DNA of 64,000 bases from a virus: positions 90,713-154,712 of the IMG/VR virus record IMGVR_UViG_3300030102_006934. One strand, written 5' to 3'. This document shows positions 2,491 to 64,000 of this stretch, one piece after another. Each line of letters opens with the position of its first letter. Position 1 is the first letter of the stretch. The notes below the pieces were generated by a model. That model was not told the origin of the DNA. It did no database searches and saw only the letters and a list, made by a program, of their open reading frames with translations. The position numbers and the translations under genes were made by a program.

Positions 2491-2760
2491 GTGGAAAATC
2501 TTATTAGAAAAATCATAAGGGAAGAAATGGATGGCTTTGATTGGGCTAGAGATATAGCCAAACCATTTATTATTACTACAACTGATACAAACAATAGATA
2601 TTGGGTGTCTAAAGGAAGACCAATAAAGGTTGGAGATTTTGTTGTTTATAAAACCGCTTCAGGTATATGGAGAGAATATGGTATAATGAATCCAGAGAAA
2701 GTAGATGATGCTAATAATTATGAGGGTTATTATAGTGTTATAGATAAAATATTAGATTAA
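2491..2760 (+). CDS. Tagged internal-head-protein candidate (89 aa)
   Basis: 89 residues with a GTG start chosen because ATATTTAT lies 4 nt upstream. The N-terminus MENLIRKIIREE-MDGFDWARDI is the shared tag: a basic amphipathic helix, an I-R-E cleavage-like site, then the FDW motif. The remaining ~75 residues form one compact module with an SH3-like pattern (RPIKVGDFVVYKTASGIWRE). By analogy with T4 internal proteins I infer capsid targeting and N-terminal trimming by the prohead protease. Confidence 0.7.
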   Translation: MENLIRKIIREEMDGFDWARDIAKPFIITTTDTNNRYWVSKGRPIKVGDFVVYKTASGIWREYGIMNPEKVDDANNYEGYYSVIDKILD

Positions 2761-2818: not shown

Positions 2819-3211
2819 ATGAATATCAGAAAAATCATAAGAGAAGAAATAGTTTTATTAAAAGAAGATTTAGAAACTTATAGTCTAATGGGATATAAGA
2901 AATTACCCAATGAAGAAAAAAAGATAATAGACCAAATAGTAGATAAACTAATAAGTAAAACTAAATTATATAAAAGAAAGGGAGAGATTAAATTCCCTTT
3001 TTATAGTGAACCTATGAGATGGGATTTGAACTATTGGAAGAGATATGGCTTTGGTCAGTCATTCTTTAATTTTATAGACAGTTATCTGGAAGATAATAAT
3101 ATAGAATTTAAAAGTCCTATATTAAATAACATGGTGAATTTAAACTTTATGGGCCCAAGACAATTAACACCCCATGAGATGGTAAAGTATATATATCTAA
3201 ACAAAATATAA
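2819..3211 (+). CDS. Tagged internal-head-protein candidate (130 aa)
   Basis: 130 residues. It begins MNIRKIIREEIVLLKEDLET: the shared basic tag with two candidate sites (I-R-E and L-K-E) but no FDW motif. The body is basic and Tyr/Phe-rich with no recognised domain. A late-type promoter motif sits just upstream and a strong terminator follows at 3222-3246, so it is probably transcribed alone. Confidence 0.7.
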   Translation: MNIRKIIREEIVLLKEDLETYSLMGYKKLPNEEKKIIDQIVDKLISKTKLYKRKGEIKFPFYSEPMRWDLNYWKRYGFGQSFFNFIDSYLEDNNIEFKSPILNNMVNLNFMGPRQLTPHEMVKYIYLNKI

Positions 3212-5156: not shown

Positions 5157-5537
5157 ATGCGTAAATTAATAAAAAAGATATTAAAAGAGAATGAATGGGA
5201 CTGGGTTAAAAAAACGAAAATCTCAATTCCCTTTGACTATGTTGAAATAGGCACTGCGTATACAATAGATTTTATGGATCCCATGAGATTTATTAAGGAG
5301 ACAGAAAAATGTGGTGTTGCTAATGCAGAAGATATAGCATATAAGACTTATTATGCAATACCTAGGGAAAGAGCTTATCTTGAATCTGGAGCCCTGTACT
5401 GTGGAGATGGTAATACAGAACATTTTAAAGGCAGTAAAACTTCTTTGTCACTAAGCTTTTATGACAATCAAAATAAATTAATACATTCATACTACTGGAT
5501 AGCCGAAGAAGAAGGGGTAGAACTAAGACCTTATTAA
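5157..5537 (+). CDS. Tagged internal-head-protein candidate (126 aa)
   Basis: 126 residues. It starts MRKLIKKILKE-NEWDWVKKTK: shared basic tag, L-K-E boundary, then the WDWVKK variant of the FDWV motif. The remaining ~110 residues form one module of the size seen in the large polyproteins. No known domain. Late-type promoter motif immediately upstream. I infer packaging into the head with N-terminal trimming. Confidence 0.7.
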   Translation: MRKLIKKILKENEWDWVKKTKISIPFDYVEIGTAYTIDFMDPMRFIKETEKCGVANAEDIAYKTYYAIPRERAYLESGALYCGDGNTEHFKGSKTSLSLSFYDNQNKLIHSYYWIAEEEGVELRPY

Positions 5538-9790: not shown

Positions 9791-10234
9791 TTATTCTTTT
9801 GGTTTGACGGTGCTTAGTTCAGTATCCCTATGATTGTCAAAATAGTCTCTACAACGTTCTATTACCTCGTCTTTATCCTCTTGGGATTCTGGATACCAAG
9901 CCATCATCGATACAATTATAGATTTTTTATTATAGGCAGTTCCAGGTGGGTAAATATCAAAATAAAGTGAGTTAGGATATCCACTATCATCTTTTATCCC
10001 ATCACGAATACTATATACTGAACTACTAGTGTGTAAATCATCATTACTCTCTATTACACCAATTATATGATCTAATATCATTAATTGTTGTTCTTTTGGT
10101 ATATTACCTAACCATACCTTATAATCACCTGGTGGGTATTTATCGATATTTAATATTTCATTTGGGATGAGTTTGATTTCTTTTACCCAATCAAAATCAT
10201 TAATTTCTTCTCTTATAATATTCCTAAGACTCAT
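9791..10234 (-). CDS. Tagged internal-head-protein candidate (147 aa)
   Basis: 147 residues. It begins MSLRNIIREE-INDFDWVKEI, the complete tag plus FDWV motif, followed by a single ~125-residue module with no known fold. The late-type motif at 10240-10247 sits 5 nt before the ATG. Inferred to be a packaged, N-terminally trimmed head protein. Confidence 0.7.
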   Translation of the reverse strand: MSLRNIIREEINDFDWVKEIKLIPNEILNIDKYPPGDYKVWLGNIPKEQQLMILDHIIGVIESNDDLHTSSSVYSIRDGIKDDSGYPNSLYFDIYPPGTAYNKKSIIVSMMAWYPESQEDKDEVIERCRDYFDNHRDTELSTVKPKE

Positions 10235-17627: not shown

Positions 17628-19097
17628 ATGAGTATCAAAAAATACATAAAAGAAGAGATGGATAGTTTTGACTGGATTAAGGACGTAAAAACTAATGATA
17701 CTATCGCTAAAGAAATTTATGATACTCTAAAATGGCATAAGGTTCCCAATGTAACAACAGATTTTGTGAAAGTACCGTGGGTTGACATTGTTTTTGCGGT
17801 AAGAAAAAGAAACTTAAGTGACTCCAAAATACCTTTAATCACCCCAAGTACATTTTACAAAGGTTTTACAAAATACGTAAAAGAATATTACAATATTTTT
17901 GATCCTCAAACTGGTGTGTTAGAAATTTACAATAAAGTTAGGGCATTAATGGGGGATAAAATTCATGGAACTATTACTGAGTCTAATGACTTTGGTTGGA
18001 CAAATAGTTCTAAACTCATATACCCTCAAGACTTAGTCGGTTATTATTTTACTTACACTGAAAAAGAATATACAATAACTAAGGTGGATGAAATGTATTT
18101 AAGTGATGATCCAGAAGATGAAAAACTCACCGTTTATTATAAGTATCGAGCTTATGAGGGGTTACGTAAAAACAAAATGGATGTGGATACTTTGATTTAT
18201 AGAATCAAAGGTGGTGACTACGGTCTATATGACTTGGAGGGTAATCCTGTTAATCCAGATGATTTGGTATATAGTGATGGTAAGTTGGAAGATGTTGATT
18301 CTGTTAATGAAAATTCTGATTTTGATTGGGTGAGTGATGTTACCCCTTATATTGATAAGGTTACTGACCTACAAATTGGTGAGTATTATGAAATAAAGGA
18401 CATAGACACAAAACTTTTCACCATGTTGGTTGATTGTGGGTGGCACTATGAGTCTGAATTAATTAGAGATTTATATGATAAAGGTGAAATACTTACCGTT
18501 AAAATTAGTGAAACGGTACCAAACGCTATATTAAATTACTATGTTTATTGTGATGGGCGTACAACATCATGGAAACCTAATAATACCGTTTCAAAGAGGG
18601 GTCCTGTAGCGGGAATAGAACTTTATAGTGAAATGGATACCTCACATCACCCAAGACATGATTGGATACCTTTCCACTCTTTTTATATTACAGATGGTAT
18701 GATAACATTTTACAGAGATAATAAGGATTTGAATGAGTCCGCAGAATTTGGTTGGATAGAAGATGTAAAACCAAATGTGTTGAAGGCTTTGGCTGATGCG
18801 AGTACGGGTGATGAGAGAATTAATTTTATTTATAGTGATGAAAATAAATATTTCACCTCCATTGAGGATGAAAAAGGTTTTAACTACTTTACTAGAGTAT
18901 CTCTTATTTCATACTTAAGAAAAGTTAGGCAGGATTGGGATACCATGCCTGAGGTAATACTTAATAGTATGACCGTTGATGAGATGTTGGGTTTTATAGA
19001 AAAATTTTTAAAAGATAACTTCCCTGACCAACAACCAGTTGCTATATATGAGGACTATTTATATTTATATGAATTTATTAAACGTGGATTAAAATAA
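17628..19097 (+). CDS. Four-module polyprotein of internal-head type
   Basis: 489 residues. Tag MSIKKYIKEE-MDSFDWIKDV, then junctions I-T-E118|S (NDFGW), V-N-E228|N (SDFDWVSDV) and L-N-E370|S (AEFGWIEDV). The four modules are 118, 110, 142 and 119 residues and have little sequence similarity to one another apart from the junction. No enzyme motif recognised. It is followed 1 nt later by the ten-junction polyprotein. Inferred: a head-packaged precursor cut by the prohead protease into separate small proteins. Confidence 0.75.
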   Translation: MSIKKYIKEEMDSFDWIKDVKTNDTIAKEIYDTLKWHKVPNVTTDFVKVPWVDIVFAVRKRNLSDSKIPLITPSTFYKGFTKYVKEYYNIFDPQTGVLEIYNKVRALMGDKIHGTITESNDFGWTNSSKLIYPQDLVGYYFTYTEKEYTITKVDEMYLSDDPEDEKLTVYYKYRAYEGLRKNKMDVDTLIYRIKGGDYGLYDLEGNPVNPDDLVYSDGKLEDVDSVNENSDFDWVSDVTPYIDKVTDLQIGEYYEIKDIDTKLFTMLVDCGWHYESELIRDLYDKGEILTVKISETVPNAILNYYVYCDGRTTSWKPNNTVSKRGPVAGIELYSEMDTSHHPRHDWIPFHSFYITDGMITFYRDNKDLNESAEFGWIEDVKPNVLKALADASTGDERINFIYSDENKYFTSIEDEKGFNYFTRVSLISYLRKVRQDWDTMPEVILNSMTVDEMLGFIEKFLKDNFPDQQPVAIYEDYLYLYEFIKRGLK

Positions 19098-19098
19098 A

Positions 19099-22000
19099 AT
19101 GGGGGATAAAAAGGAAGAATTTAATTGGGTTAATGATATCTCAAGTGATTACTGGGACTACCATAACGTTTTAGTGTTTAATGATGCCATTAGTTATGAA
19201 GAGTTCGATGATTTAATCTCTCACGCTTTATATTCCAAGTCACCTAAAAATTCACACCAATGGGGAGACGATGGGAAAAAAGAGGCTTGGAATTATTTAA
19301 CCCACCTTGTAAAAAGTTATAGTGTGGGTTATCTTATTTGGGATAAACCATATTTATCCGTTTCAGCTCAACACAAGCTGAAACAAGGAGACCCAAAATT
19401 AGTAAATTATAAGGATATAGTTAATCAAAAACCAAAGTTAGATGAGTCTGATGAATTTAGTTGGGTTAGAGATGAGGTTGATAGTCCGATTAGGTTTAGT
19501 GTAGGTGATAAAATAAGGGTTATTAATGTGGGTGATGTACAAACTTTCATCGATTTTTTGGGTACTGCTGGTGTATATTATCGTAAAGGTCTACTTGGAA
19601 CTAATATTGAGGGTGAGATTATAGATGGTGGTAATGAATATTTATTCCCCTTAAGGGAGAAAAATAGGGGTAAAATAATTTTTTTACCATGGTTAGACAT
19701 GGTAGATTATTGGGCTGACTCCTACCCTGATTTGGATGTTAGGTATGAATTTATAGATGATGACTTAAACGAATCTAGTGATTTAGATTGGATTAGAGAT
19801 GTTGAACCGCCTAATTTAGATTTTAGTTTTGATGGTAAGGAACATTGGGTTGACGTTTCACAAATAGATAGAGAAGGTAGGAAAAAAATTGTAAATTATA
19901 TTAAAAAAACTGTTCCAAATTACGAAGAATTTGAAAGTGATCTGTTCGGTCATATATCTAGAGGTAATTATAAAGGAATTATTATTCATTGTGGTTCTGA
20001 TAGGACCTATTATGAACCTGAAGAAGGTTTATTATGTAGTGCAAATAGTAGTTACGAAGATGATTATAAAATAGACAACCCATACTCAGATATGCTAAAA
20101 TCTGTTTATCTTGATGGCCAAGAAATATTAGATTATATTACTGTGACTGATGATGTTGATGAAGAATTAGATGAATCTTTGGAGTGGTCAGACAAGGACG
20201 CACCTTTTGATGAAAAAGATAAAAGTTTTGAATCAGACCCTAGTTGGAAGAATGATGAAGATTGGTCATTAAACCCCGAAAGGTCTTATTGGAAACAAGG
20301 GGATACTGGGGGTTCTGGTGGTGGTGACGTGAATGAGTCCAATGAGTTAGAATGGATTTATGATATAAGACCCACATTAAAAGACGTTTTTGATGAAAAT
20401 TTGATTGGGGTTGGGGATATTTTAACACTTTATGGGACATTGGAAGATGAAAATGGTTTGGAAGAACAACAGGTAGATGATTTTAAAGTAAAGATAGAGA
20501 CTGTCTCAAATTCAGAAAGACCTCGATTAGTCTCTACTTACTTCAAACCATTACAAAAAAAATATTGGGGTTTCTTGGGTTATGATGGTACGGGAGATAT
20601 AAGGTTCACTAAAAAAGATGGTAACTTACAGTTGGTGGATAGAATTAGTGGTAAAGGTTTGGTAGAAGGGTCTAATGACTGGGATTGGGTGGAAGATATA
20701 CCAGGAACAAAAGAATTTGACCAAAAATATAGATATTTTGAAATTTTGGCTTGTTATGGTGTTGATTATGAATCTGAAGAGTGTGATGATGAATATTCAC
20801 ATTATGTTAGAATACCCAAATATGAGGCTGATGAAATATGGGACCATTCGGTTGATTATTTCGCTGGAATTGCTGATGGTGATTCTTATGATGTTATTAT
20901 GTACGCAATACAAAATAGACTAATATCACACTTTGAAATCAACGAAATTGTTATGTTTGAGGGTGTTAGAGAGTTGGATAAAAATACTTATGATAAACTA
21001 ACAGATTATAGAGATGACTTGCTTACAAATGAATCATATTTTATCAATGAAAAAAGTGATGACTTTGACTGGGTTAAGGATATAAAACCCAATTGGGGTA
21101 CTTATTATGGTGGTATAATAATGAAGGACATTGAGGGTCTACCTAAAAAATTAGAAGATGTAACAAGTGAAATGTTACTACCTATTTGGATGAAAATAGA
21201 AACTATTAATAGACAAATATTAACTAGAAAAAACAGAGATGATAAACATGGTGTGAGTGAGACGTTAATTGATTCTATGGATCAAATCGAGTGGCTGTTT
21301 GGTAGAATAATGGCTTTGGTTGATGGTGAAACCGATAGTTTAGTATCTTCCAGAATGGAACCACAGGAGTATTACAATTCAAGAAAACTAACTATAATTA
21401 GTTACATAAAAGGCATGGCTCAACAATTAGAACTACTCGGTGAATCTAATGACTTTGGTTGGGTAGAAGATGTAACACCAAGGATGGACGCTACCCTATT
21501 AAAACCTGGACAAAAATTCTATGACAAATGGGGTGGCGTTATAAGAGTGTTAGAGTACTTGGGTAGGGATGATTCTGAAGGTGAAGTTTGTTATGAACCC
21601 CCTTGTAGTTTATTAAGATTTAGGAAAATAAAAGACCCAAGTGGTTACATACCAATTCCTGGATTACCAGCTGATGACCCACAAAACACAGATATGGTAA
21701 TGAACCCAAACGATTTCGATAGTTACATTGAATCTGGTAAATTAAAGTTAGTTAGTAAACGTACAATGTATGAATCAAAAGATTTTGATTGGGTTAGGGA
21801 TGTTGAAACCGATAGAACTGACTCTAAGTATTATATAATAGATAGAAGAAGTTTCTCTGGGGTTCCTGAAAAACAAAAAGATGAGTGGTTTATGATAGAA
21901 ATATTAGAAAATGACAAGTATGGCATTCATTGGAGACCTTACGCATGGAATTTGGTGAATGTTCATACTTGGAATCCAACCCATCGAGTTGGAAAAATGT

Positions 22001-22863
22001 CAAACGATGAATTTAAAAATTTATTAGGTTTAGGTTCAAAGGATAAACCTTACTGGTACCCTCATGATGGGGATTTGACTGACCTACCCAAAAATTACGA
22101 CCATGGGTTGTTGTCTCAACTAAATACCCCCAAAAATCTTAGGGAGTCTGATGATGTTAGCCATTTTAATTGGGTTAAAAAGATCTCAAGTGACGACTAT
22201 GAACCCCGTACTGGTGACCACATTGAAATTGTTAATCAAGGAAAACCACATTTATTTAAAAATTGGTTATCCCCCACTATTTGGATGGATTATAACATGG
22301 GTAAAATAACTAACACAGATGGTAATATAGAGGGTGTAGTACAAAATGATTACCCAACTCAAAACGCTCAAGATAATTTTGTCGTCAAAATAAAAGGTAC
22401 CAAAAATGAATATATTTTTCTACCTAAGAGATATAAAATAAAACAAATTAAAGAAAAAACTAGGGACCCTGAATGGCACGGTTTAGACATTATATATAGA
22501 CCTATTGAATTAAGATCAGAATTAAAAGAGGATTCTAGTGACACCTCTGATTGGGACTGGGCTAAAAAGATTGAACCAAAATATACAAAAATAGCACCAA
22601 ATATATATCAATATGGTAGTGGGAGTTTACCAAGGATAAAGGTTGTATTTAAAAGGGTAGTGGATGGTGAAATAAAAACCACCGCAATAGAGTTTGACGA
22701 TTATGAGTTTTTAGATAGTGAAGAATACATGAATAGGCATTTCATTTTAATGGGTGTTGATGATGAGGATAATGATTGGATAGTTGATGGTATAGCTTAT
22801 CTTATTGGTGGGGGTGAGTATGAGTGGGATGTTAATTGGGATTCTATAGAAAATAATGGTTAG
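19099..22863 (+). CDS. Giant polyprotein with ten predicted cleavage junctions
   Basis: 1254 residues. Starts MGDKKEEFNWVNDI without a full basic tag. Junctions, each (I/L/V/M)-x-E and mostly followed by S-x-D-F-D-W-V-x-D: E116, E225, E359, E413, E523, E651, E782, E892, E1016, E1144. Module lengths are 109-134 residues, plus one 54-residue linker (360-413) that is acidic and Gly-rich. The modules are Asp/Tyr/Trp-rich and mutually divergent, unlike a simple tandem repeat. No known domains. Lying between the 489-residue polyprotein and the lysozyme polyprotein with 1-2 nt gaps, it belongs to one operon of packaged precursors. Confidence 0.75.
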   Translation: MGDKKEEFNWVNDISSDYWDYHNVLVFNDAISYEEFDDLISHALYSKSPKNSHQWGDDGKKEAWNYLTHLVKSYSVGYLIWDKPYLSVSAQHKLKQGDPKLVNYKDIVNQKPKLDESDEFSWVRDEVDSPIRFSVGDKIRVINVGDVQTFIDFLGTAGVYYRKGLLGTNIEGEIIDGGNEYLFPLREKNRGKIIFLPWLDMVDYWADSYPDLDVRYEFIDDDLNESSDLDWIRDVEPPNLDFSFDGKEHWVDVSQIDREGRKKIVNYIKKTVPNYEEFESDLFGHISRGNYKGIIIHCGSDRTYYEPEEGLLCSANSSYEDDYKIDNPYSDMLKSVYLDGQEILDYITVTDDVDEELDESLEWSDKDAPFDEKDKSFESDPSWKNDEDWSLNPERSYWKQGDTGGSGGGDVNESNELEWIYDIRPTLKDVFDENLIGVGDILTLYGTLEDENGLEEQQVDDFKVKIETVSNSERPRLVSTYFKPLQKKYWGFLGYDGTGDIRFTKKDGNLQLVDRISGKGLVEGSNDWDWVEDIPGTKEFDQKYRYFEILACYGVDYESEECDDEYSHYVRIPKYEADEIWDHSVDYFAGIADGDSYDVIMYAIQNRLISHFEINEIVMFEGVRELDKNTYDKLTDYRDDLLTNESYFINEKSDDFDWVKDIKPNWGTYYGGIIMKDIEGLPKKLEDVTSEMLLPIWMKIETINRQILTRKNRDDKHGVSETLIDSMDQIEWLFGRIMALVDGETDSLVSSRMEPQEYYNSRKLTIISYIKGMAQQLELLGESNDFGWVEDVTPRMDATLLKPGQKFYDKWGGVIRVLEYLGRDDSEGEVCYEPPCSLLRFRKIKDPSGYIPIPGLPADDPQNTDMVMNPNDFDSYIESGKLKLVSKRTMYESKDFDWVRDVETDRTDSKYYIIDRRSFSGVPEKQKDEWFMIEILENDKYGIHWRPYAWNLVNVHTWNPTHRVGKMSNDEFKNLLGLGSKDKPYWYPHDGDLTDLPKNYDHGLLSQLNTPKNLRESDDVSHFNWVKKISSDDYEPRTGDHIEIVNQGKPHLFKNWLSPTIWMDYNMGKITNTDGNIEGVVQNDYPTQNAQDNFVVKIKGTKNEYIFLPKRYKIKQIKEKTRDPEWHGLDIIYRPIELRSELKEDSSDTSDWDWAKKIEPKYTKIAPNIYQYGSGSLPRIKVVFKRVVDGEIKTTAIEFDDYEFLDSEEYMNRHFILMGVDDEDNDWIVDGIAYLIGGGEYEWDVNWDSIENNG

Positions 22864-22865
22864 TT

Positions 22866-24080
22866 ATGGAGATAAGAAAAATAATAAGGGAAGAATTAAA
22901 TGATTTCGATTGGGTTAGGGATGTTGAACCTGAATTAACGCCAGAAACATTAGAATTAATCTATAATAAGCCATTTCACTTTCACCGTACAGAAGATAGT
23001 GGACCAAATATGAAGAATGGTAAACCAACAGTCTACTGGGTGGATAGGAGGTTGAGTGAGTTAAAAAATACTAATAAGTCTTCTAAGAACCCTATTGCGG
23101 ATGATAGAGAGTTTTTTTTATGTTATAAAGAACCCCAAGGACCACACACACTTCACCAATGTAGTGAAATGTATGCTAAAACAATAATCAGTTATATCAA
23201 AAGAAAACAACTTGTTCAACAGAAAGAATTATCAGATATTAAAGAATCTGAAATTTATTTAAATAAAATACTTAATAGGTTATCCTTAATTAAAGAAGAT
23301 GGTAAAAAACCAGACATGGAGTGGGATTTTACTAAGACTAATTTAGATAAATCTAAAAAATGGGTTAAAACAAAAGAAGATGTTAAAAAATATCTTTCAC
23401 TCTTATTTGATAAATTAAAAAATTTACCTAGAAAAACTAAAATTAAAATAATTAAGTATGTTTTAACTTCTTTTATTGGTTTATTAACAATAAGCCAATT
23501 ACAAGATATTGTGGATGAGACCTCACCAGAGAAGATAGAAATTAAGAAACCAATAAAACAAGAACTTCCAACAGACAAGGATTCAACCAAAGTTATGAAC
23601 ACTCAAATAAATAAAATTAGAAAACCTAGTGAAGAGTTAACTACTTTTCTAAAAAAAGAAGAGGGGTACGTTGATAAAGGTTATAAGATTGGTGATGGTA
23701 AAATAACGATTGGTTGGGGTCATGCTGAGGATATTGATGGTTCTAAATATACATTGGGTCAACAGATTGACACAACAGAAGCCGAAACATTATTAAGACA
23801 AGATATTAAAGAATCTTCAGATGCTTTAAACAGAATTTTAGATGATTGGGAAAGTAAGGGTATCAAGGTTGATATTACACAAGATATGTATAATGTGATG
23901 ACATCTATGGTTTTTAATATGGGTATCGGTAACTTTAGAAATTCTGATTTTATCCAATTAGTTAAGGGTAATGAGTTGAGTAGAGCTAAGGAAAAAATAA
24001 AAACAACAAGTTCACACTTATTTGGTAAATTTCCAGGTCTTAAAAAAAGAAGAAAATTAGAATCAGATTTATTTAATTAA
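22866..24080 (+). CDS. Tagged membrane-associated lysozyme (GH24-type)
   Basis: 404 residues. Tag MEIRKIIREE-LNDFDWVRDV and a module to ~120, paralogous to module 2 of the protein at 7577. Two candidate cut sites follow (I-K-E127|S and I-K-E144|D), then a hydrophobic segment (~195-212, IIKYVLTSFIGLLTISQL). A phage-lysozyme domain spans 255-404: E266 in KKEEGY is the probable catalytic acid, and ITIGWGHA (280-287) is the GH24 core. The usual central Asp is not at the standard spacing. It cleaves peptidoglycan; the tag suggests a head-packaged lysozyme released by processing, not a classical endolysin. It could still serve lysis. Confidence 0.8.
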   Translation: MEIRKIIREELNDFDWVRDVEPELTPETLELIYNKPFHFHRTEDSGPNMKNGKPTVYWVDRRLSELKNTNKSSKNPIADDREFFLCYKEPQGPHTLHQCSEMYAKTIISYIKRKQLVQQKELSDIKESEIYLNKILNRLSLIKEDGKKPDMEWDFTKTNLDKSKKWVKTKEDVKKYLSLLFDKLKNLPRKTKIKIIKYVLTSFIGLLTISQLQDIVDETSPEKIEIKKPIKQELPTDKDSTKVMNTQINKIRKPSEELTTFLKKEEGYVDKGYKIGDGKITIGWGHAEDIDGSKYTLGQQIDTTEAETLLRQDIKESSDALNRILDDWESKGIKVDITQDMYNVMTSMVFNMGIGNFRNSDFIQLVKGNELSRAKEKIKTTSSHLFGKFPGLKKRRKLESDLFN

Positions 24081-24298
24081 AAATCGAAAGGTTTTATAAA
24101 TTTTGGTGGGTTTATGTTACCAGCAAAGCTATTGAATTTGATATTACCTGCCGCTATACCACTTATTAATTTAGATTTTTTAATAATGAACCTACTACCA
24201 TCAGATAAATCTAAGTCAATATCATCATTATTTATATCTGTTATAATAGCGTGATAACCATTATTATAACCTAAAACGTCACCTATTTTGAAAATCAT
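24077..24298 (-). CDS. Small SH3-like hypothetical protein
   Basis: 73 residues starting MIFKIGDVLGYNNGYHAIIT, a pattern of small SH3-like barrels, with an Asp-rich turn (NNDDIDLDLSDGS). It converges with the lysozyme gene (4-nt overlap of ends). It is the last gene of a minus-strand unit headed by the lipoprotein gene. Function unknown. Confidence 0.65.
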   Translation of the reverse strand: MIFKIGDVLGYNNGYHAIITDINNDDIDLDLSDGSRFIIKKSKLISGIAAGNIKFNSFAGNINPPKFIKPFDF

Positions 24299-24301
24299 GA
24301 T

Positions 24302-24508
24302 TTATTTTAATATGTGTTTATCTAAAGAAAAAACTACTTTATCATCTAAATAAACCTTGTAACCATCCTTCACTAGGTCCCAACCAAATTCCATCATCAA
24401 ATATTTTACTTGTCTATCTAATTCTTTAGAAGCTTCAACCTCTTTTTCAAAAAAAGAAACATAGTTAGGACATTCACCAGTTTTATCCAATAAACAATAT
24501 ATATCCAT
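24302..24508 (-). CDS. Hypothetical protein
   Basis: 68 residues when started at ATG 24508 (MDIYCLLDKTGECPNYVSFF). A longer frame from 24559 would overlap the lipoprotein gene by 47 nt, so I prefer the internal start 4 nt after that gene's stop. Helical, charged; no family recognised. Confidence 0.6.
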   Translation of the reverse strand: MDIYCLLDKTGECPNYVSFFEKEVEASKELDRQVKYLMMEFGWDLVKDGYKVYLDDKVVFSLDKHILK

Positions 24509-24512
24509 TACT

Positions 24513-24974
24513 TTATTCGTTGAAAAAAAATGATATCGCTGGGAAATTACTCTCCTCATCGTTATTTAAACCACTCTGAGATATTGTTTCTGTTGCGTAG
24601 TATGTTTGACTAGACGTGACTACCTCTCTAGTAGATACTAATACATCGTCAACGTATACCTCCATAATAAACCAATAGTAGAGTTGCGGGTTAACAATAA
24701 ACTTAACCTCATCACCACTTTTTAGTTGCCAAAATTCGTAATCCCACTCATAACCAGGTGTTATGTAGTCTTTGTAAATTCTAGGTGGATCATTGTCGTA
24801 GTTAGGTGAACAACTAACCTCAATAAAATCTGAAGACCCTACTGGTGGAACTTCCATAAATGTTAGATGAAATCTAACTCTGTGAAAATTATTGTCGTGT
24901 TTATCACAAGAAGAAGTGATTAAACTTAAGATTAATAATAGAAAGAGAAATAATTTGTTAAATAAAGTTTTCAT
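24513..24974 (-). CDS. Phage-encoded lipoprotein
   Basis: 153 residues. Lys-containing N-terminus, hydrophobic core (LFLFLLLILSLIT), and a lipobox-like ending LITSSC with Cys23 as lipidation site: a type II signal peptide. After the Cys comes DKHDNN, possibly the charged segment that in Bacteroidota can direct lipoproteins to the surface. The mature part is beta-rich. It has its own host-type promoter, so it may be made early, for example in superinfection exclusion by masking a receptor. That role is inference. Confidence 0.75.
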   Translation of the reverse strand: MKTLFNKLFLFLLLILSLITSSCDKHDNNFHRVRFHLTFMEVPPVGSSDFIEVSCSPNYDNDPPRIYKDYITPGYEWDYEFWQLKSGDEVKFIVNPQLYYWFIMEVYVDDVLVSTREVVTSSQTYYATETISQSGLNNDEESNFPAISFFFNE

Positions 24975-24997
24975 TGTTTTTTGTTTTTTTCTATATA

Positions 24998-25028
24998 CAA
25001 ATATAGTGAATTATCATTAAGCCACCAA
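24998..25028 (-). promoter_or_regulatory. Host-type promoter TTG-N20-TATATTTG
   Basis: Minus strand TTTG ending at 25026, 20 nt, TATATTTG (25005-24998), then 23 nt of A-rich leader to the lipoprotein ATG at 24974. Confidence 0.8.
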
Positions 25029-25035
25029 ATCTAAA

Positions 25036-25239
25036 TTAAATATTTTTATCATGATAACCTTCGAATACTTCATTTATTTTTTCAGTGGATATACCCCCAT
25101 CTGTTATAGGTGTATCTAAAAGAATTTTCATAGTCTGAAAAGCCATTCCGAATTTACCCTCTTTCAACATATCACCCATCACTTTAAGTTTAAAATCTTC
25201 TGGTAAACCTAAAAACCATTGTTTTTCTTTAAATGTCAT
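25036..25239 (-). CDS. Small hypothetical protein
   Basis: 67 residues, helical (MTFKEKQWFLGLPEDFKLKV at the start). No family recognised. It lies between the terminator at 25266-25306 and the promoter of the lipoprotein, so it must have its own start signal; a TATATTTA box is present upstream. Confidence 0.6.
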   Translation of the reverse strand: MTFKEKQWFLGLPEDFKLKVMGDMLKEGKFGMAFQTMKILLDTPITDGGISTEKINEVFEGYHDKNI

Positions 25240-25265
25240 ATCCTATATTTTTATATAAATATAAA

Positions 25266-25306
25266 TAAAAAAACTCATTCTCCAAAAGAAAATGAGTTTT
25301 TTTTTT
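25266..25306 (-). terminator. Strong terminator (works on both strands)
   Basis: AAACTCATT (25271-25279) pairs with AATGAGTTT (25291-25299), with an A-run on one side and a T-run on the other. On the minus strand it directly follows the candidate structured RNA. Confidence 0.85.
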
Positions 25307-25307
25307 A

Positions 25308-25441
25308 CTTGGGGGAGGGTATCTAACCCTCCACAGCTTCTCTTCGTGATTAATACTTCTAAAAAGATCTTCAATATTAACCCTTATTACCCGAAACCAA
25401 CCTACTCGTCAGTAGGTCGCATATACTTTTCGCCACCCAAG
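25308..25441 (-). ncRNA. Candidate structured RNA closed by CTTGGG/CCCAAG
   Basis: A 134-nt non-coding segment with nested pairings. The closing stem is 25308-25313 with 25436-25441. Internal hairpins are GGAGGGT/ACCCTCC (25314-25320 with 25326-25332), GATTAATA/TATTAACC (25348-25355 with 25375-25382, one G-U) and CCTACT/AGTAGG (25401-25406 with 25411-25416). On the minus strand it ends at a strong terminator, which favours that strand and possible processing from the 3' end of the 25485-25868 transcript. Not a recognisable tRNA, tmRNA or known riboswitch. Confidence 0.5.
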
Positions 25442-25448
25442 ATTACTT

Positions 25449-25468
25449 AATAATAATAATAATAATAA
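25449..25468. repeat. (TAA)n microsatellite
   Basis: Seven tandem TAA/ATA triplets between the structured-RNA candidate and the 127-residue gene. Low-complexity spacer. Confidence 0.7.
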
Positions 25469-25484
25469 AACTATTAGTCAACAC

Positions 25485-25868
25485 TTACTCACTAAAATTA
25501 AATTTCTTTAGACATTTACCATTTAAAGATAATCCTATCATTTGGTTCTTTAAATTTTCCGTCTCTTCTAAGACAGCCTTTTTTGTCCATACTTCACGTG
25601 TATCCATTAAATGACGAGTATCGAAACCAATTACCCACCCCCCTTTTAACTCTTCATTAGTAAAGTTACCTTCATTTATGTTGGGTCTCAAATCGAAAAA
25701 TATCTCGTAAGTTCTACTAAAGGTTAATCCACCATGGACGTAAACTGGTATTTCATCGTATTCCACACCCCACATTGGATGGTCTTTAAAAATGATTACG
25801 TACCCATTACCCCATCCTTGTTTATTCCAATCGTTTTCTAAGACAAATGATAAAATTTTAATTTTCAT
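25485..25868 (-). CDS. Conserved-looking phage hypothetical protein
   Basis: 127 residues, Trp-rich (WNKQGWGNGYVIIFKDHPMW) with GGWVIGFDTRHLMD, a pattern I associate with an uncharacterised phage family. No catalytic signature. Driven by a perfect host-type promoter placed 4 nt before the ATG, so likely early. Function unknown. Confidence 0.7.
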   Translation of the reverse strand: MKIKILSFVLENDWNKQGWGNGYVIIFKDHPMWGVEYDEIPVYVHGGLTFSRTYEIFFDLRPNINEGNFTNEELKGGWVIGFDTRHLMDTREVWTKKAVLEETENLKNQMIGLSLNGKCLKKFNFSE

Positions 25869-25872
25869 AATA

Positions 25873-25903
25873 CAAATATACTACAATTTTTTATGTAAAA
25901 CAA
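25873..25903 (-). promoter_or_regulatory. Host-type promoter TTG-N20-TATATTTG
   Basis: Minus strand TTG (25903-25901), 20 nt, TATATTTG (25880-25873), then 4 nt (TATT) to the ATG. It sits back-to-back with the late-type motif at 25905-25912. Confidence 0.85.
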
Positions 25904-25904
25904 G

Positions 25905-25912
25905 ATATTTAT
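25905..25912 (+). promoter_or_regulatory. ATATTTAT late-type promoter motif
   Basis: Lies 18 nt before ATG 25931, divergent from the host-type promoter at 25873-25903. Confidence 0.6.
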
Positions 25913-25930
25913 GAATATATAAAACATGGG

Positions 25931-28636
25931 ATGTTAAAAAAAGTTACTTTACCTAAAAATATTAATTTTTTAAAGGAGTCGGAATTTGATTTTGTTGACG
26001 ATAAAACCAACAACCCTTTAGATGGTGTTAAGTTTACTATGAATAAATCACCAATAAAAGGTGACGAGAAAAACATTTACTATATAATAGATGACGGTGG
26101 CTTATTTGTTAAAATAAAATGGTACGGTGGTGGTTATTTAAAAAGAACCTTTAAGAGAGATAGGGTAATGGATTTATTTAAAAGAGGGGTTTGGGAACCT
26201 TATTTTGAACCTACTAAGAACATTAATGAATCAGAAAATGGTGACTTTGATTGGATAAAAGATACTACCCCAAAAGAGATAGACAACTATTATAAAGTTG
26301 TTTTGGATTTTTTTGATTGGAGTAGGAAATATAAAGGTTACAGTTATAGTGCAAATGATGTAGGTGTTGTAGAGTGGTACATACCAATAGTTGATTTTCC
26401 ATATCCGTTTCATGACTATTATTTTTACGCAACCCCTTATTGGGAGGGTAATGGTGTTATGAATGTTACCGCTGTGGATGAACAAGGCCACGAAATAGAG
26501 TTACACACAATACCATTACCTAAATTTAAATACGAAGAACAACTAAAAGAATGGTTAACGTCAGAGTACCCAAAAATAGTTTACGAAGAAATAAAACATT
26601 TTGAAGACACTCGGCAATATAGTGGTGATACTTTAACCGAAACCAAAGATTTACAGTGGATAAAAGATGTGGGTACCAATAGAATCGATTTGGTTAAAAA
26701 AATAAAAGAGACGTTATCTAATCATGGTGTTGAGGTAGAATGGGAAAGGGACCACTTGGCTTATAACCAAGAAGACACAGATGGTACTAGGGGTGAGGTT
26801 TTTGCTAAATTTTTCTATGATGCTGGTGATAGACAGTTTTTTATTGAACTTATAGAATCGGAAAATGATTTATATGGTTTTTATGTTTATGAATATAATG
26901 AACAATATGACACTTATTATGTAAACGCTAATTATAATTCCCTTGGTATACCTAGGGAATCAGATGAAACTTGGCGTCATGTGTGTTGGACGGTTCTAAA
27001 TCAAATGGATGCTTTTCCAAAAAAAGATAAGGTTGGTGATTTAGCAGATTATTTAAAAGAATCTGATGATTTCGAATGGGTTAGAGATTACAAAGATGTT
27101 TTTGATAAAAACAAAAACTACGCTCTATACGTGGGTAAAATTAATATTGATGACATGACTTTACCGCCAAGGGAAAATCCGAATAACAAATCAATATACA
27201 TTCATAAATTAAATAAACAGGTGAAGTTTATTCTTAGTTTAATACATCAGTTTGAAGATATGGGTTATGATATAAGGGAGTTAGATAGAGAGATTGCCAT
27301 CCCCTCAAACCAAAGAGTTTCTTGGATATACATAAACGGTAAAGAAAGTAAATCTGGAAAACCAATGTCGTTAGAGTTTGATGACATACCCCCTGGAGAC
27401 CCAACCTATGATGGTCAATATGAGATTATTGATAATTTTAAAGACTTTTATTTTTTAATTACTAATGAAGTTATTAAAGAGTCCGATAATTTGGATTGGA
27501 TTAGGGATATTAAATCACAAGGTTTTGAAAAAAGTAAAAGTTATGTTGTTGATGTTAGTAACTTAATGGTAGATACACCAATGTCTGTTTCCCCTACTTC
27601 TGAGGAATACACTAAATTAACAAGAGCAGATGTTCTAGACAAATTTAAAGCGTTAGGTTATAATGTTGATGATATTTCTGTTGCTGACGCTGATTATCTA
27701 TATATTGAACCTAACGATGAAGCTGGTTATTGGGATGATACTGTTTGGGTTAAGCAAACTCATTGGGTAGACTATGATATGGAACACAACACACCCGACC
27801 CAACTTATAATGGCAAGTACGAAATGATAGATGTTAATGACCTTATGTTTTTACTTGATAATAAATTTATTAGTGAATCTAAATCAATAACTGAAGTAGC
27901 GGGTATTTCATTTGAATCAAGGGAATGGGCTAAAATAATAAATGACAAAATATTAAAAAACCCAAATGAAAAAGAGAGGTTGATTATTGATGGTTACGAT
28001 TATCCAGAAGCCTTTAAGAGTTTCCCAATAGACTATATTGTGATTGATTTTTACGATAAGTTAACTGGTTATGCTCAAGAACACTCTGGTTATGATAAAG
28101 ATGGTAACTATGTTGTACTATTATATATACAACCTAAAGTAATTAGTGGTACTGGTGGGTTTAACCTAAGAACAGTACTTAATCATGAAATGAAACACGC
28201 ATGGGACGATTATAACAGGCTTTCTAAAGGCCAACCTAGTATTGATAAGAATAAGGAAAACAGGGAGTTGTATAACAAAGATTTTATATTAATGTTATCA
28301 GATAAAAATGTTCGTGGACCCATAAAAGAAATCTTAAAATATTATTATTATTTATCTGAACTAGAGAAGACGGCTTACCTAGAAAATGTTTATGATGGTA
28401 ATTTAAATTACGAAAAAATAATAAGGGATATATCTAGTAAAGACTTCGAACCTTTTAAAGAAAGATTTGATTTGGATATTAATTGGCATTTAATGAATAC
28501 GGCTTACGATATACCATTCTTGAAGAAATTTAAATCCCCAATAGAATTTATTGATTATAGTTCTGAGGAATTAAGGTCAAAAGCGGTTGATATGATTAAG
28601 AAAATCAACAAAATGAAATATATTCATAATAAATAA
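25931..28636 (+). CDS. Six-module polyprotein ending in an HExxH metallopeptidase
   Basis: 901 residues. Junctions: L-K-E16|S, I-N-E100|S, L-T-E237|T, L-K-E377|S, I-K-E517|S, I-S-E649|S. The modules span 17-100, 101-237, 238-377, 378-517, 518-649 and 650-901. Module 101-237 (FYATPYWEG ... LPKFKYEEQL) is paralogous to one in the protein at 47656; modules 4 and 5 share DPTY.G.YE.ID. The last domain has HEMKH at 752-756 followed by AWDDY, a zinc-peptidase helix. The first junction leaves a 16-residue leader like T4 capsid-targeting peptides. Inferred: a packaged precursor delivering a protease. Confidence 0.8.
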   Translation: MLKKVTLPKNINFLKESEFDFVDDKTNNPLDGVKFTMNKSPIKGDEKNIYYIIDDGGLFVKIKWYGGGYLKRTFKRDRVMDLFKRGVWEPYFEPTKNINESENGDFDWIKDTTPKEIDNYYKVVLDFFDWSRKYKGYSYSANDVGVVEWYIPIVDFPYPFHDYYFYATPYWEGNGVMNVTAVDEQGHEIELHTIPLPKFKYEEQLKEWLTSEYPKIVYEEIKHFEDTRQYSGDTLTETKDLQWIKDVGTNRIDLVKKIKETLSNHGVEVEWERDHLAYNQEDTDGTRGEVFAKFFYDAGDRQFFIELIESENDLYGFYVYEYNEQYDTYYVNANYNSLGIPRESDETWRHVCWTVLNQMDAFPKKDKVGDLADYLKESDDFEWVRDYKDVFDKNKNYALYVGKINIDDMTLPPRENPNNKSIYIHKLNKQVKFILSLIHQFEDMGYDIRELDREIAIPSNQRVSWIYINGKESKSGKPMSLEFDDIPPGDPTYDGQYEIIDNFKDFYFLITNEVIKESDNLDWIRDIKSQGFEKSKSYVVDVSNLMVDTPMSVSPTSEEYTKLTRADVLDKFKALGYNVDDISVADADYLYIEPNDEAGYWDDTVWVKQTHWVDYDMEHNTPDPTYNGKYEMIDVNDLMFLLDNKFISESKSITEVAGISFESREWAKIINDKILKNPNEKERLIIDGYDYPEAFKSFPIDYIVIDFYDKLTGYAQEHSGYDKDGNYVVLLYIQPKVISGTGGFNLRTVLNHEMKHAWDDYNRLSKGQPSIDKNKENRELYNKDFILMLSDKNVRGPIKEILKYYYYLSELEKTAYLENVYDGNLNYEKIIRDISSKDFEPFKERFDLDINWHLMNTAYDIPFLKKFKSPIEFIDYSSEELRSKAVDMIKKINKMKYIHNK

Positions 28637-34667: not shown

Positions 34668-36212
34668 ATGAAAAATATAATAAAAGAAGAGTTATTAGTT
34701 AAAGTCTTATTAGAGGGTAGATTAGAAGACGTTGTTAACAAATATGCCGATAATCAAGATGATGTTGATGACATACTCTATTTTTCAAAAAACGATCCAT
34801 CTGGTAATAATAAATATTTAAAATGGATGGCGAACCAATGGTTAAAACCAGTACCAACTGGTGGAGCCAATAATAAAGGGGATATAGTTTTAGTTGTTAA
34901 ATCTTTCCACGAAAATCTACAAAGAATAAATAATAAAGATATTAATAGTTACAAAACTTTTGGTGAATTAAAAAAAGTAACCGATGAGGCTGAAGAAAAG
35001 AAAAAAGAGGCTGAAGAAAAGAAAGCGGTTAAAAATCAAAAAGTTGTAATTTATAATGACGATGATTGGTTGGTCGTGTCCCCATTATCGTGGGAAGCTT
35101 CTTGTTACTACGGTGCTGGAACAAAGTGGTGTGTGGCCTCAAAACAAACTGACACCCATTGGAAAGGTTACAATAAAAGATCTACCTTTTTTTATGTGAT
35201 AGATAAAAATAAAAATCAAAAAGACCCACTTTATAAAGTCGCTTACAGAATGTTAAAGGATAATAGAAGGGAGTTTTGGGATGCTGAGGATTTAGAGTTT
35301 AGTAAACAAGAAAGGGGTGAGACATGGTTCGAAAGATTACCCAAAAGAATGATAGATAATCTTAATCAATATCACATGGATAATTATCCAACACGTCCCA
35401 CTGATACTGAATGGATCGATGATGATAATCGAGCACAGGCTTTAGAAAATTTACTTGGACACAGTAATATCACTCCAGTCGAAAATGATTTATGGTACAA
35501 ATTAAGAATTTATTTAGATGAAAATGATAATCAGTACTATGCTGTTGGTGATGAAGATGATATAGAAGAATCTATACAAGAATATTACGAAATGATGGAT
35601 GAAAGTGAGATATTTCAAATAATGGATCCAAGTAGTTTAGAAAGTCATATATCAATGGACGATTCAAGAGGTTACGCGGAGGAAGAAGCTACATATATGT
35701 TAGATGGCTTTGATGACCGTGAAATATGTGTAGAAAAGGGTAGAGGTTTAGACTATGATAATCTACAATCTGAAATCGAAGATTTAGATAGTGATATAGA
35801 TAGCCTTGAGTCAGACCAAAGACAATACGCAGAAACCGAAGAAGAGATAGAAGAAATAGATGAACAAATAACTGATTTGGAGATGCAGAGAGATGATAAA
35901 GAAGGTGAATTCGAACAGTTAATTGAAGACTGTAAAACAGACTATGTGGATGATAAAGCAGATGAAATAGAGTATCAAATAGACACTTATGGTCCTGTAG
36001 ATTATTTCATCAATGAACTAGGTCATTTTAAGGGTATAGCTCAAATGATGGGGGTAGGTGGTTTTTCGTTTGATCGGGATGATTGGATTTCTAATGAGAT
36101 TTTAGTATATACAACAGGTGATATGGCTTATACTATTTTTGAGGACGACTTTACCACTGAAGATGATGACGAAGGTGGCGAACATTACCTAGGTAAAATA
36201 AGTTACCAATAA
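34668..36212 (+). CDS. Tagged protein with YGAGTKWC motif and coiled coil
   Basis: 514 residues. Begins MKNIIKEELLVKVLLEG, a tag-like basic helix with I-K-E. Around residues 140-190 is WEASCYYGAGTKWCVASK...HW, a motif of an uncharacterised phage family in which Trp-Cys and His could be functional. Residues ~365-425 form an acidic coiled coil (EIEDLDSDIDSLESDQRQYA). The C-terminus is acidic. Inferred virion protein because of the tag and late-type promoter; activity unknown. Confidence 0.65.
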   Translation: MKNIIKEELLVKVLLEGRLEDVVNKYADNQDDVDDILYFSKNDPSGNNKYLKWMANQWLKPVPTGGANNKGDIVLVVKSFHENLQRINNKDINSYKTFGELKKVTDEAEEKKKEAEEKKAVKNQKVVIYNDDDWLVVSPLSWEASCYYGAGTKWCVASKQTDTHWKGYNKRSTFFYVIDKNKNQKDPLYKVAYRMLKDNRREFWDAEDLEFSKQERGETWFERLPKRMIDNLNQYHMDNYPTRPTDTEWIDDDNRAQALENLLGHSNITPVENDLWYKLRIYLDENDNQYYAVGDEDDIEESIQEYYEMMDESEIFQIMDPSSLESHISMDDSRGYAEEEATYMLDGFDDREICVEKGRGLDYDNLQSEIEDLDSDIDSLESDQRQYAETEEEIEEIDEQITDLEMQRDDKEGEFEQLIEDCKTDYVDDKADEIEYQIDTYGPVDYFINELGHFKGIAQMMGVGGFSFDRDDWISNEILVYTTGDMAYTIFEDDFTTEDDDEGGEHYLGKISYQ

Positions 36213-47071: not shown

Positions 47072-47623
47072 TTAATTTTCGTATTCAAAGTCTAATCCAC
47101 TTTGTCTTTTTTCATATTCTTCGGAATCTAAACCAGCCTCATACATCCTACCTTCTTCGAAACCTTTATTATATACAATTTCCTTTATTTCATTAAATTC
47201 TTTTTCGGCTTGGTCTTTACCTTCTTCTTCTCCTTCTTTAAGTCCATCAGCGTAACCTTCATCGTATCCTTCATCGTGAGCGTTGAGTTTCGCATCAAGC
47301 ATATCATCTTCACAGTCATCCTTTCCTTCTCTAAAACCTTCATTGTAACCCTCTCTATGACCTTCTCCCCAAGCCAACTGTTTACCATCTTCTTGTGAGG
47401 TTTCTGCCACTTGTTTTATTATATCGGTCAATAGATTCAGTTCTTTATTTAATAAACCTAATCCATGTACTTTTTTGGCGATATGATTTAAAAACCAATT
47501 GCTGGCCCCATAGTCAGTTATAACATCAATCTTATCCTCTATTTGTTCTACACTAATAGGTTCAACATCTTTAGTCCAATCAAAATCATTTTCTTTTAAT
47601 ATTTTCTTAATAGTATTTCTCAT
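47072..47623 (-). CDS. Tagged protein with GY-EG repeats
   Basis: 183 residues. Tag MRNTIKKILKE-NDFDWTKDVEPI. Residues ~80-165 contain repeated G-x-x-E-G units (GEGHREGYNEGFREGKDD; DEGYDEGYADGLKEGEEEGK), likely a long acidic helix. The late-type promoter at 47632-47639 lies upstream. Inferred to be packaged; the repeat resembles flexible scaffolds or linkers more than an enzyme. Confidence 0.7.
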   Translation of the reverse strand: MRNTIKKILKENDFDWTKDVEPISVEQIEDKIDVITDYGASNWFLNHIAKKVHGLGLLNKELNLLTDIIKQVAETSQEDGKQLAWGEGHREGYNEGFREGKDDCEDDMLDAKLNAHDEGYDEGYADGLKEGEEEGKDQAEKEFNEIKEIVYNKGFEEGRMYEAGLDSEEYEKRQSGLDFEYEN

Positions 47624-47639: not shown

Positions 47640-47643
47640 TGTG

Positions 47644-47651
47644 ATATTTAT
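47644..47651 (+). promoter_or_regulatory. ATATTTAT late-type promoter motif (divergent pair, right)
   Basis: Ends 4 nt before ATG 47656. It overlaps an alternative ATG at 47650, which is why I choose 47656 as the start. Confidence 0.65.
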
Positions 47652-47655
47652 GAAT

Positions 47656-61034: not shown

Positions 61035-61766
61035 ATGAAAATATTAAAACCAGGAGAAGAAGGATATGGATATCTTGTAGAATATGATTCAGGGTTCATA
61101 TCTTCTGAACTAACTTGTCAAGATGGAGTTTGTTCTAACCATAACCTAATAAAAGAGTTTAAATCGGGATTAAGTTTAGGTCAAGATGGTACATTACCAG
61201 ATAAAATAGAAATTTATGCCGTACTACAAAAGTGGGGTGTAGAGAACAAGAATGGGAGGGTATACCCAGAAGAGATTTTGAAAAGAGAATCTAAGAGATA
61301 TCAAGAGTTTATAGATATGGGTACGTCTTTGGGGGAATTAAACCACCCAGAGTCTTCAATTATTGATGCTGACAGAGTTTCACATATGATTTCAGAGATT
61401 TGGTGGAACGGTAGAACACTTATGGGAAAAATGGAGTTAGATACAACACCAGGTTACCTTAAATCAGGTATTATCTCATCTGTAGGTGATAAAGTATTAA
61501 ATATGATTAGGAAGGGTTGGACCGTTGGTATTTCATCTAGAGGAGTAGGTTCTTTAAAGAATGAAAATGGTAAAAATATTGTACAGGAGGATTTCGAATT
61601 AATTTGTTGGGATATAGTTACTTCTCCATCAACACCAGGTTCTTGGATATCTACCTCGGAAAAAGATTTAAAACCTTTCATGGAGTCTACCAAAGGGGAT
61701 AAAACAAAATTAATAATAGAAGATGACTCTGACTTATTAGATAGTTTAGATAAATTTTTATTGTAA
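61035..61766 (+). CDS. Prohead core protease (T4 gp21-like)
   Basis: 243 residues (T4 gp21 is 212). Serine protease of the herpesvirus-assemblin-like type: His104 in GELNHPE and Ser167/168 in GISSRG, with acidic DFELICWDIV following. In T4 this enzyme removes core proteins and N-terminal targeting peptides in the prohead, cutting after (L/I)-x-E. Located between portal and scaffold as in T4. It is the expected enzyme for the many (I/L)-x-E junctions across this window. Confidence 0.92.
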   Translation: MKILKPGEEGYGYLVEYDSGFISSELTCQDGVCSNHNLIKEFKSGLSLGQDGTLPDKIEIYAVLQKWGVENKNGRVYPEEILKRESKRYQEFIDMGTSLGELNHPESSIIDADRVSHMISEIWWNGRTLMGKMELDTTPGYLKSGIISSVGDKVLNMIRKGWTVGISSRGVGSLKNENGKNIVQEDFELICWDIVTSPSTPGSWISTSEKDLKPFMESTKGDKTKLIIEDDSDLLDSLDKFLL

Positions 61767-63488: not shown

Positions 63489-63495
63489 ACAAAAA

Positions 63496-63503: not shown

Positions 63504-63556
63504 CACTCTTTTTTAACAAGAGAAATAAAAAAATAAAACTTTTCCACACTTTTAAC

Positions 63557-63625: not shown

Positions 63626-64000
63626 ATGGCAAATGAAAGAAAGTCTATCATCGATGAAGCCCTTTTAGAAAGCGCTCAAATTGAGAAAGCTTTTGAAGCC
63701 AACGCAAAAGAAATACTGACTCGTACAATGAGTTCAGAAATTGAAGAAATGGTAAAGGAATCTTTAGAAGGTTCGATTGGTTTAACGGAGGATGAAGATG
63801 AAGAGAAAGATGAGTTAGAGTTAGATCTAGAATTAGGTGACTCTGATGAAATGGATGCCAGCGGTGCTGGTGAAGAAGTTGACCTAGAAATGGGTGAACT
63901 AGAAATGGATGATGAACCAATGGATGGTGAAATCGAAATGGATGATGTTGAAAGTATTGACTTAACAACAACAGAAATGCCTGAAGTAATTAACGTATTC
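63626..64000 (+). CDS. Prohead scaffold/core protein (gp22-like), cut by window end
   Basis: 125 residues visible from ATG 63626, open at the right edge. N-terminal helical part (MANERKSIIDEALLESAQIE; EEMVKESLEGSIGL) then a very acidic Glu/Asp/Met stretch. Composition and position right after the prohead protease match the T4 major scaffold gene 22; the major capsid gene should follow. Contains sites fitting (L/I)-x-E. Confidence 0.75.
   Translation, partial: MANERKSIIDEALLESAQIEKAFEANAKEILTRTMSSEIEEMVKESLEGSIGLTEDEDEEKDELELDLELGDSDEMDASGAGEEVDLEMGELEMDDEPMDGEIEMDDVESIDLTTTEMPEVINVF

Follow-up and report, generated by a model that had tools for sequence, protein, structure and literature searches.

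What does a phage gain from giant proteins that are built of small, divergent modules joined by a recurring boundary? This question is raised by a stretch of 64,000 nucleotides (the window), which comprises bases 90,713–154,712 of the 380,343-bp uncultivated virus record IMGVR_UViG_3300030102_006934 and encodes three such proteins, here called arrays and named, like all genes of the window, after their lower coordinate (17628, 19099 and 25931; Table 1). The original prediction, made from the letters of the window alone, took them for maturation polyproteins that are cut by the prohead protease and load many small proteins into the capsid. According to our analysis, these genes probably encode polyproteins of T4-type internal (ejection) proteins that are cut in the prohead. 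The window contains a T4-type terminase, a portal and an S77 prohead protease, and the gene of the major capsid protein follows 0.9 kb past its end; the phage is therefore T4-like and, judged by the 380 kb of its record, a jumbo phage. Coordinates with the prefix G000 refer to the whole record; L-numbers designate the stretches and contigs that were compared. As the record was read in stretches, all numbers of arrays are to be taken as "at least".

Predicted cut sites at the module junctions

The coordinates given by the original prediction for the 17628, 19099 and 25931 proteins were correct, and their 3, 10 and 6 junctions were reproduced. As in a polyprotein, a conserved protease-type site is located at the module boundaries. 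It has a Glu at P1 and a Leu (11), Ile (5), Val (2) or Met (1) at P3. The looser rule I/L/V/M-x-E thus holds at 19 of 19 junctions, whereas the strict T4 rule L/I-x-E holds at only 16. An FDWVxDV-like motif (W motif) follows all 19 junctions but one. The six junctions of the 25931 protein correspond to five with the W motif plus the site or sites that precede its last domain, one junction being devoid of the motif.

The association of site and motif was assessed in 163 non-overlapping open reading frames (ORFs) of the phage (37,283 aa). The motif was defined by its downstream residues alone ([FLWM][DENGQS]W[VIAT]x[DEKNS][VIETY]), and [ILVM]xE was sought up to eight residues upstream. The site precedes 37 of the 39 motifs, compared to 15.5% of random positions (binomial P ~6e-28), and a chance origin of the pairing is excluded. 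Of the two motifs without a site, one belongs to a spurious ORF, and one is located at the N-terminus of the 19099 protein, directly after the initiator Met, where nothing has to be removed. A second array without the N-terminal tag described below, L127_10064 of another phage, also starts with the motif and has no site. Scanning 2.9 million viral contigs with P1–P3 left free yielded 45 in-frame readings: 23 with a site, all of them arrays or tagged proteins, and 22 without a site, mostly isolated matches. The 58 nonredundant internal junctions were chosen for a Glu at P1 and I/L/V/M at P3, and are informative with respect to the split within P3 (Leu 28, Ile 23, Val 4, Met 3) and to the other positions: P1' is a Ser in 43 cases and P2 is variable.

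The enzyme that is predicted to cut at these sites is encoded at 61035. For this protein, S77 family profiles and the alignment of the catalytic triad agree with the gp21-type protease that had been proposed: the elements GELNHP and SSRG-x-GSL and the catalytic Asp are aligned with T4 gp21, and the catalytic His, Ser and Asp are kept. T4 gp21 cuts after L/I-X-E (PMC9026906). The site of the major capsid protein is aligned exactly opposite the T4 gp23 cut SFLTE↓AEIGG (↓ marks the cut), and this column reads [ILM]xE in 81 of 81 related capsid proteins compared. By this alignment, the capsid site is evidence for the specificity of the protease in the lineage, and it is independent of the arrays. 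It is thus very probable that the prohead protease cuts at the array junctions.

Alternatively, the chains might stay uncut, and [ILV]xE-x(1-7)-FDWVxDV might be one docking motif that tethers structural or effector copies to a partner like beads on a string. The conservation of residues on both sides of the supposed cut, including FDW-(V/I)-x-D-(V/I), is compatible with this explanation, which we nevertheless consider unlikely for several reasons. The Glu is separated from the aromatic motif by 1 to 7 residues at internal junctions, and by 0 residues upwards in tags. There are (I/L)xE tags without the motif (2819, 62205), and there is a motif without a site after an initiator Met. Ahead of the metallopeptidase and lysozyme parts, junctions are kept although the motif is lacking, and P1 and P3 fit both the published specificity and the capsid site. 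As there are junctions and tags without the motif, motif and cut site are separable, and the motif is not simply part of the protease recognition sequence.

N-terminal tags and exchange of modules

MxIKKIIRE↓ or MKxLIKKILKE↓ is found at the start of single-module proteins and, in most arrays, of the first module. These tags, which had been missed by the original prediction, are the strongest link to the internal proteins of T4. They consist of 9–11 basic and hydrophobic residues ending with (I/L)-x-E; 29 nonredundant examples of the KKI(I/L)(K/R)E↓ type were found. The translated T4 proteins IPII and IPIII both start with MKTYQEFIAE↓, which is the published 10-residue capsid targeting sequence (PMC9026906, PMC10229621). 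The hydrophobic residues at P3, P4 and P7 coincide; tag and targeting sequence are similar, not identical. Tag-like starts were observed in 29 of 1000 genes (2.9%) from 80 related loci, compared to 0.34% of random windows. Furthermore, homologues of a 25931 module stand alone in distant phages, and at one such locus, L167, neighbouring proteins start with MKTYKQFITE and MKTYKQFINE, which is nearly the T4 sequence. Tag and W motif are separable, since 2819, 62205 and several genes 3' of the capsid gene possess a tag without the motif.

The start codon of the untagged 19099 array is located 1 nt past the stop of the tagged 17628 array, and the untagged L127_10064 overlaps its tagged neighbour by 4 nt. 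Untagged arrays may enter by co-translation with the tagged neighbour or via the W motif itself. A programmed frameshift that fuses 17628 to 19099 was ruled out, because the 19099 frame is open for just two codons 5' of its ATG.

Tag-like starts were also seen outside the arrays. SprT-like metallopeptidase proteins are encoded at 6164–6694 (+) and 63084–63506 (−); the latter, just under the curated cut-off, starts with the tag-like MRSLIKKVLRE↓A and may be internal-protein cargo. The proteins of ~300 aa encoded at L038:784–1692 (this phage) and L033:5239–6123 are related, as judged by eye. The L033 protein has a tag and the W motif (MKNIIKKIIKEEINDFGWTKGV), the L038 protein a tag-like start without the motif, which constitutes a natural gain or loss of the motif. 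In L185 and L186 (IMGVR_UViG_3300031601), the body of the proteins behind a tag (MKNIKQIIKE↓EINDFDWIEEHEF) is made up of ITSLGNLxSVGGxLxL units that resemble a leucine-rich repeat; here, the same tag carries cargo of another kind. The 8-bp element ATATTTAT, possibly a promoter, is located ~12 or ~24 nt 5' of many starts (2491, 2819, 7577, 17628, 54567, 61035 and others). It precedes 12 of 27 array or tag genes versus 24 of 114 others (p 0.025), and is also found before several head genes and in control regions. It was therefore dropped as proof of late expression and is regarded as a hint only.

The viral contigs scanned yielded no relatives of the 17628 and 19099 arrays that could be aligned directly; shuffled modules were compared instead. 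This shuffling, like the tags, had escaped the original prediction. Among 122 modules of this phage and related contigs (motif removed), 23 families with at least two members were identified, and at least six families were found both tagged and within arrays. For example, the tagged single protein L158_8245 (MKSIKQIIRE↓EINDFDWTSEIKPMKPEMEW / EINDFDWTSEIKPMKPEMEWLKSNFDNLKP) matches the last module of array L033_6415 (PLNE↓SNDFDWTSEIKPMKPEMEW / SNDFDWTSEIKPMKPEMEWLKSNFDNLKP), and the module inside L039_239 is matched by tagged L038_19227 (44% over 238 aa, E 1.5e-61). The module behind the tag of 22866 is homologous to the one in the middle of 7577. Likewise, the module that opens 19099 is homologous to the third one of another array, and the last modules of 17628 and of a further array (L038:17235) are homologous. 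For six modules of 19099, homologues occur elsewhere, either within an array or as a single protein with a tag. In L146, the lysozyme of 22866 closes an array of 848 aa, and both sites are kept. The nucleotidyltransferase-like domain of 47641 is followed by two junctions here and by six in L152; in the orthologues from L032, L150 and L166, P3 and P1 are kept and P2 changes. The module junctions that had been predicted for this protein are present, and its start, which had been placed at 47656, can also be a GTG at 47641.

The original prediction had suggested comparing the conservation of junctions with that of modules in related phages. In 34 cross-context homologous pairs, the mean identity from P25 to P4 is 12.5%, and Glu at P1 and I/L/V/M at P3 are present in all; this 34/34 is partly by construction, as the sites were placed by hand, and the unbiased test is the motif count given above. 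As far as homology delimits the modules, the junctions coincide with the module-swap boundaries.

Both 25931 and L127_10064 have the HExxH domain at their C-terminal end, where the homology of the two proteins starts at ITE↓. Phage polyvalent proteins carry metallopeptidase domains that are thought to self-process (PMC5512222), and one might suppose that the arrays are proteins of this type, which either a carried metallopeptidase, such as the HExxH domain of 25931, or an enzyme of the host processes prior to or following injection. This is very improbable: most arrays have no HExxH domain, yet contain the same junctions, these junctions fit the S77 specificity and the capsid site, and the HExxH domain would itself be released at ITE↓.

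Two modules were modelled with AlphaFold2 from shallow alignments (5 and 4 sequences). The models (mean pLDDT 70 and 72) have a compact core of the alpha/beta type. The pLDDT is below 50 for residues 1–14 and 132–137 of one module and for residues 1–4, 8–18 and most of 116–128 of the other; flexibility is thus predicted for the junction and for the greater part of the W motif, as expected of a protease site. A Foldseek search of the PDB with the two models detected no similar solved fold. The cores are also relevant for a third explanation, according to which the prohead protease cuts the chains and the modules are scaffold-core material like T4 gp22, gp67 and gp68, consumed in assembly and not delivered. 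T4 core proteins are indeed cut at many L/I-x-E sites, and such tripeptides occur 16 times in T4 gp22 and 11 times in the scaffold of the phage. This role is rather unlikely for modules of ~85–140 residues that are diverse, shuffled and modelled with globular cores, unlike degraded scaffold. Moreover, several modules are joined to enzyme domains, and a separate scaffold candidate is located between the protease and capsid genes.

Proposed route into the virion and comparison with known systems

We propose that the arrays are processed in the prohead as follows. As read from the genes, small, fast-evolving globular modules of ~85–140 residues are translated singly or in chains of up to 11. The tag of the first module, given its form and position, would act like the T4 capsid targeting sequence and bring the chain into the prohead's scaffold core. 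The 61035 protease, active in the prohead, would cut after the junction Glu, as its matching specificity suggests, and thus remove the tag and free the modules. By analogy, the freed modules, some of them with lysozyme, metallopeptidase-like or nucleotidyltransferase-like domains, would remain in the head and reach the host together with the DNA. FDWVxDV, located at the new N-termini, would probably mediate docking, either to the core or for ejection; this is the least certain step. Junction cleavage combined with packaging and delivery appears fairly likely by analogy with T4. Of the maturation polyprotein originally predicted, the cut-site logic is well supported by the S77 triad, the capsid site in 81/81 proteins, the swap boundaries and the tagged single proteins, whereas cleavage, presence in the virion and loading are what we infer.

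We lean slightly towards regarding the system as an exchangeable platform of a jumbo T4-like lineage: any small domain flanked by [I/L]-x-E and FDWVxDV could be added, lost or reordered, and would be carried into the prohead, released and injected as one of dozens of early effectors per virion. If the proposed processing is right, the maturation protease that trims the capsid doubles as a polyprotein protease, and one enzyme and few genes could load dozens of different small proteins. The rules for tag, cut site and motif would then be a sequence signature for virion-delivered proteins of uncultured giant phages, which are otherwise nearly unrecognisable, and the first counter-defence wave of such phages would become searchable.

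Several observations weigh against the proposed processing and delivery. P3 is a Val or Met at three of the 19 junctions. Within modules, [ILVM]xE occurs at background frequency and is not depleted; folding, and not sequence alone, must therefore shield these sites. Array 19099 carries no tag. As no module fold was recognised, the effector role rests on the attached enzymes and the analogy with T4. Finally, most relatives with capsid proteins that are ~60–65% identical do not contain the FDWV pattern in the stretches compared (only 3 matches in 22 records, of which 20 encode a related capsid protein), and the system is therefore lineage-restricted.

The arrays seen in the window by the original prediction are not confined to it. 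Further ones are located at 313–333 kb and 342–344 kb of G000 and in the uncultivated contigs L033, L136, L146, L152/L159, L127, L129 and L144. Some of these contigs probably share one population; the arrays represent four to five lineages at least. Searching 50,697 phage records of an isolate collection by means of tblastn with the 19099 and L152 arrays gave no match, peptide-pattern scans of viral contigs with 17628 and 19099 gave no relatives, and none of the five matches in a bacterial genome scan was an array or a tagged protein.

The arrays resemble T4 IPI–IPIII and Alt, which are matured by gp21, in the protease family, the L/I-x-E cut and a tag of ~10 residues that ends at the cut. Internal proteins of T-even phages are a highly diverse defence set with only the targeting sequence in common (PMC3012670), and here, too, small, diverse and fast-changing cargo follows a conserved tag (PMC3012670, PMC9026906). 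In contrast to T4, where each internal protein has its own gene and only the ends are cut, as many as 11 modules form one chain here, in which neighbours are separated by a cut site, and FDWVxDV follows most cuts. In phiKZ, 201phi2-1 and SPN3US (MEROPS S80), many head and ejection proteins are likewise cut after Glu by a gp21 homologue, with 29 sites in 19 proteins of 201phi2-1 and 14 sites in 9 proteins of SPN3US (PMC9026906, PMC10052503). Their sites are S/A-x-E, however, and no chains of separate cargo modules have been described for them; 13 of the 14 SPN3US sites remove N-terminal propeptides, and the other one the C-terminal propeptide of the protease itself (PMC10052503). Polyvalent proteins (Iyer et al. 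2017) also combine many domains in one late polypeptide that is proposed to be packaged, injected and processed into units. For them, self-processing by a built-in metallopeptidase was proposed, whereas the junctions described here fit the prohead protease and most arrays are free of peptidases. The 17628, 19099 and 25931 proteins contain no recognised Pfam domains apart from the sub-threshold C-terminal match of 25931, and PADLOC gave no match. With the polyproteins of eukaryotic viruses, the arrays share one long product, conserved sites and a virus-encoded protease; there is no homology, and the arrays carry accessory cargo that can be exchanged and whose cutting is predicted to take place within the prohead. 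In the literature searched, no phage polyprotein that is processed by a prohead protease was described. The enzyme, the tag and the site rule are known in kind; chains in which as many as 11 modules can be released, with the cuts as swap points, are undescribed in this literature.

Features of the window and its surroundings

Table 1. Arrays, tagged proteins and head genes; ↓, predicted cut; nt, last nucleotide before a cut
Feature	Position	Strand	Details
Array polyprotein, 489 aa	17628..19097	+	Tag MSIKKYIKE↓ and 4 modules; predicted cuts after E9, E118, E228, E370 (nt 17654, 17981, 18311, 18737)
Array polyprotein, 1254 aa	19099..22863	+	11 modules, untagged, N-terminus MGDKKEEFNWVNDI; ten junctions, predicted cuts after E116, 225, 359, 413, 523, 651, 782, 892, 1016, 1144 (nt 19446, 19773, 20175, 20337, 20667, 21051, 21444, 21774, 22146, 22530)
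Array polyprotein, 901 aa	25931..28636	+	W-motif junctions E16, 100, 237, 377, 517 (nt 25978, 26230, 26641, 27061, 27481); sites ISE649↓S and ITE655↓V (nt 27877, 27895); then C-terminal HExxH metallopeptidase-like domain (Pfam M91 sub-threshold, E 0.02)
Array polyprotein, 302 aa	7577..8485	−	Tag MSLKKVIRE↓ and 3 modules; predicted cuts after E9, E91, E195
Tagged module and phage lysozyme domain	22866..24080	+	MEIRKIIRE↓ELNDFDWVRDV; PF00959 E 3.5e-20; additional predicted cuts IKE127↓S, IKE144↓D ahead of the lysozyme part
Nucleotidyltransferase-like domain, then two modules	47641..49530	+	Predicted cuts LIE264↓S, LEE518↓T; alternative start 47656; Pfam matches sub-threshold
Single-module protein	2491..2760	+	Tag MENLIRKIIRE↓EMDGFDWARDI
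Single-module protein	5157..5537	+	Tag MRKLIKKILKE↓NEWDWVKK
Single-module protein	9791..10234	−	Tag MSLRNIIRE↓EINDFDWVKEI
Single-module protein	47072..47623	−	Tag MRNTIKKILKE↓NDFDWTKDV; tag and site kept in L032, L147, L150, L152
Tagged protein without W motif	2819..3211	+	MNIRKIIRE↓EIVLL
Tagged protein without W motif, head-gene cluster	62205..62726	+	MNIRKIIKE↓ELLKEVGG; kept in close relatives
Tag-like N-terminus, no W motif, no Pfam family	34668..36212	+	MKNIIKE↓ELLVK
Prohead protease, T4 gp21 family (Peptidase_S77), predicted cutting enzyme	61035..61766	+	PF03420 E 3.1e-28; phrog_207 E 1.2e-41
Probable scaffold gene, start	63626..64000	+	Runs on to G000:155576; between protease and capsid genes
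Major capsid protein	G000:155604-157406		Site LISE↓TTDAG; 3' of probable scaffold gene

Among the other genes of the window, 29283–30023 (−) is possibly an auxiliary metabolic gene; it encodes an iron-sulfur protein like subunit B of succinate dehydrogenase/fumarate reductase, with 4Fe-4S domains in addition to Fer2_3 (E 1.5e-22). A UV endonuclease UvdE is encoded at 31921–32826 (−), a ClpB/ClpA-type AAA ATPase at 43647–46112 (−), and a thymidylate synthase with an apparent insertion of ~85 residues relative to the Pfam model at 30303–31364 (−). The long repetitive proteins at 12668–17425, 10993–12648 and 36254–39277 consist of TGATLVGTTLELERNNGLSDVTVDLS-type units and are probably tail fibres or adhesins.

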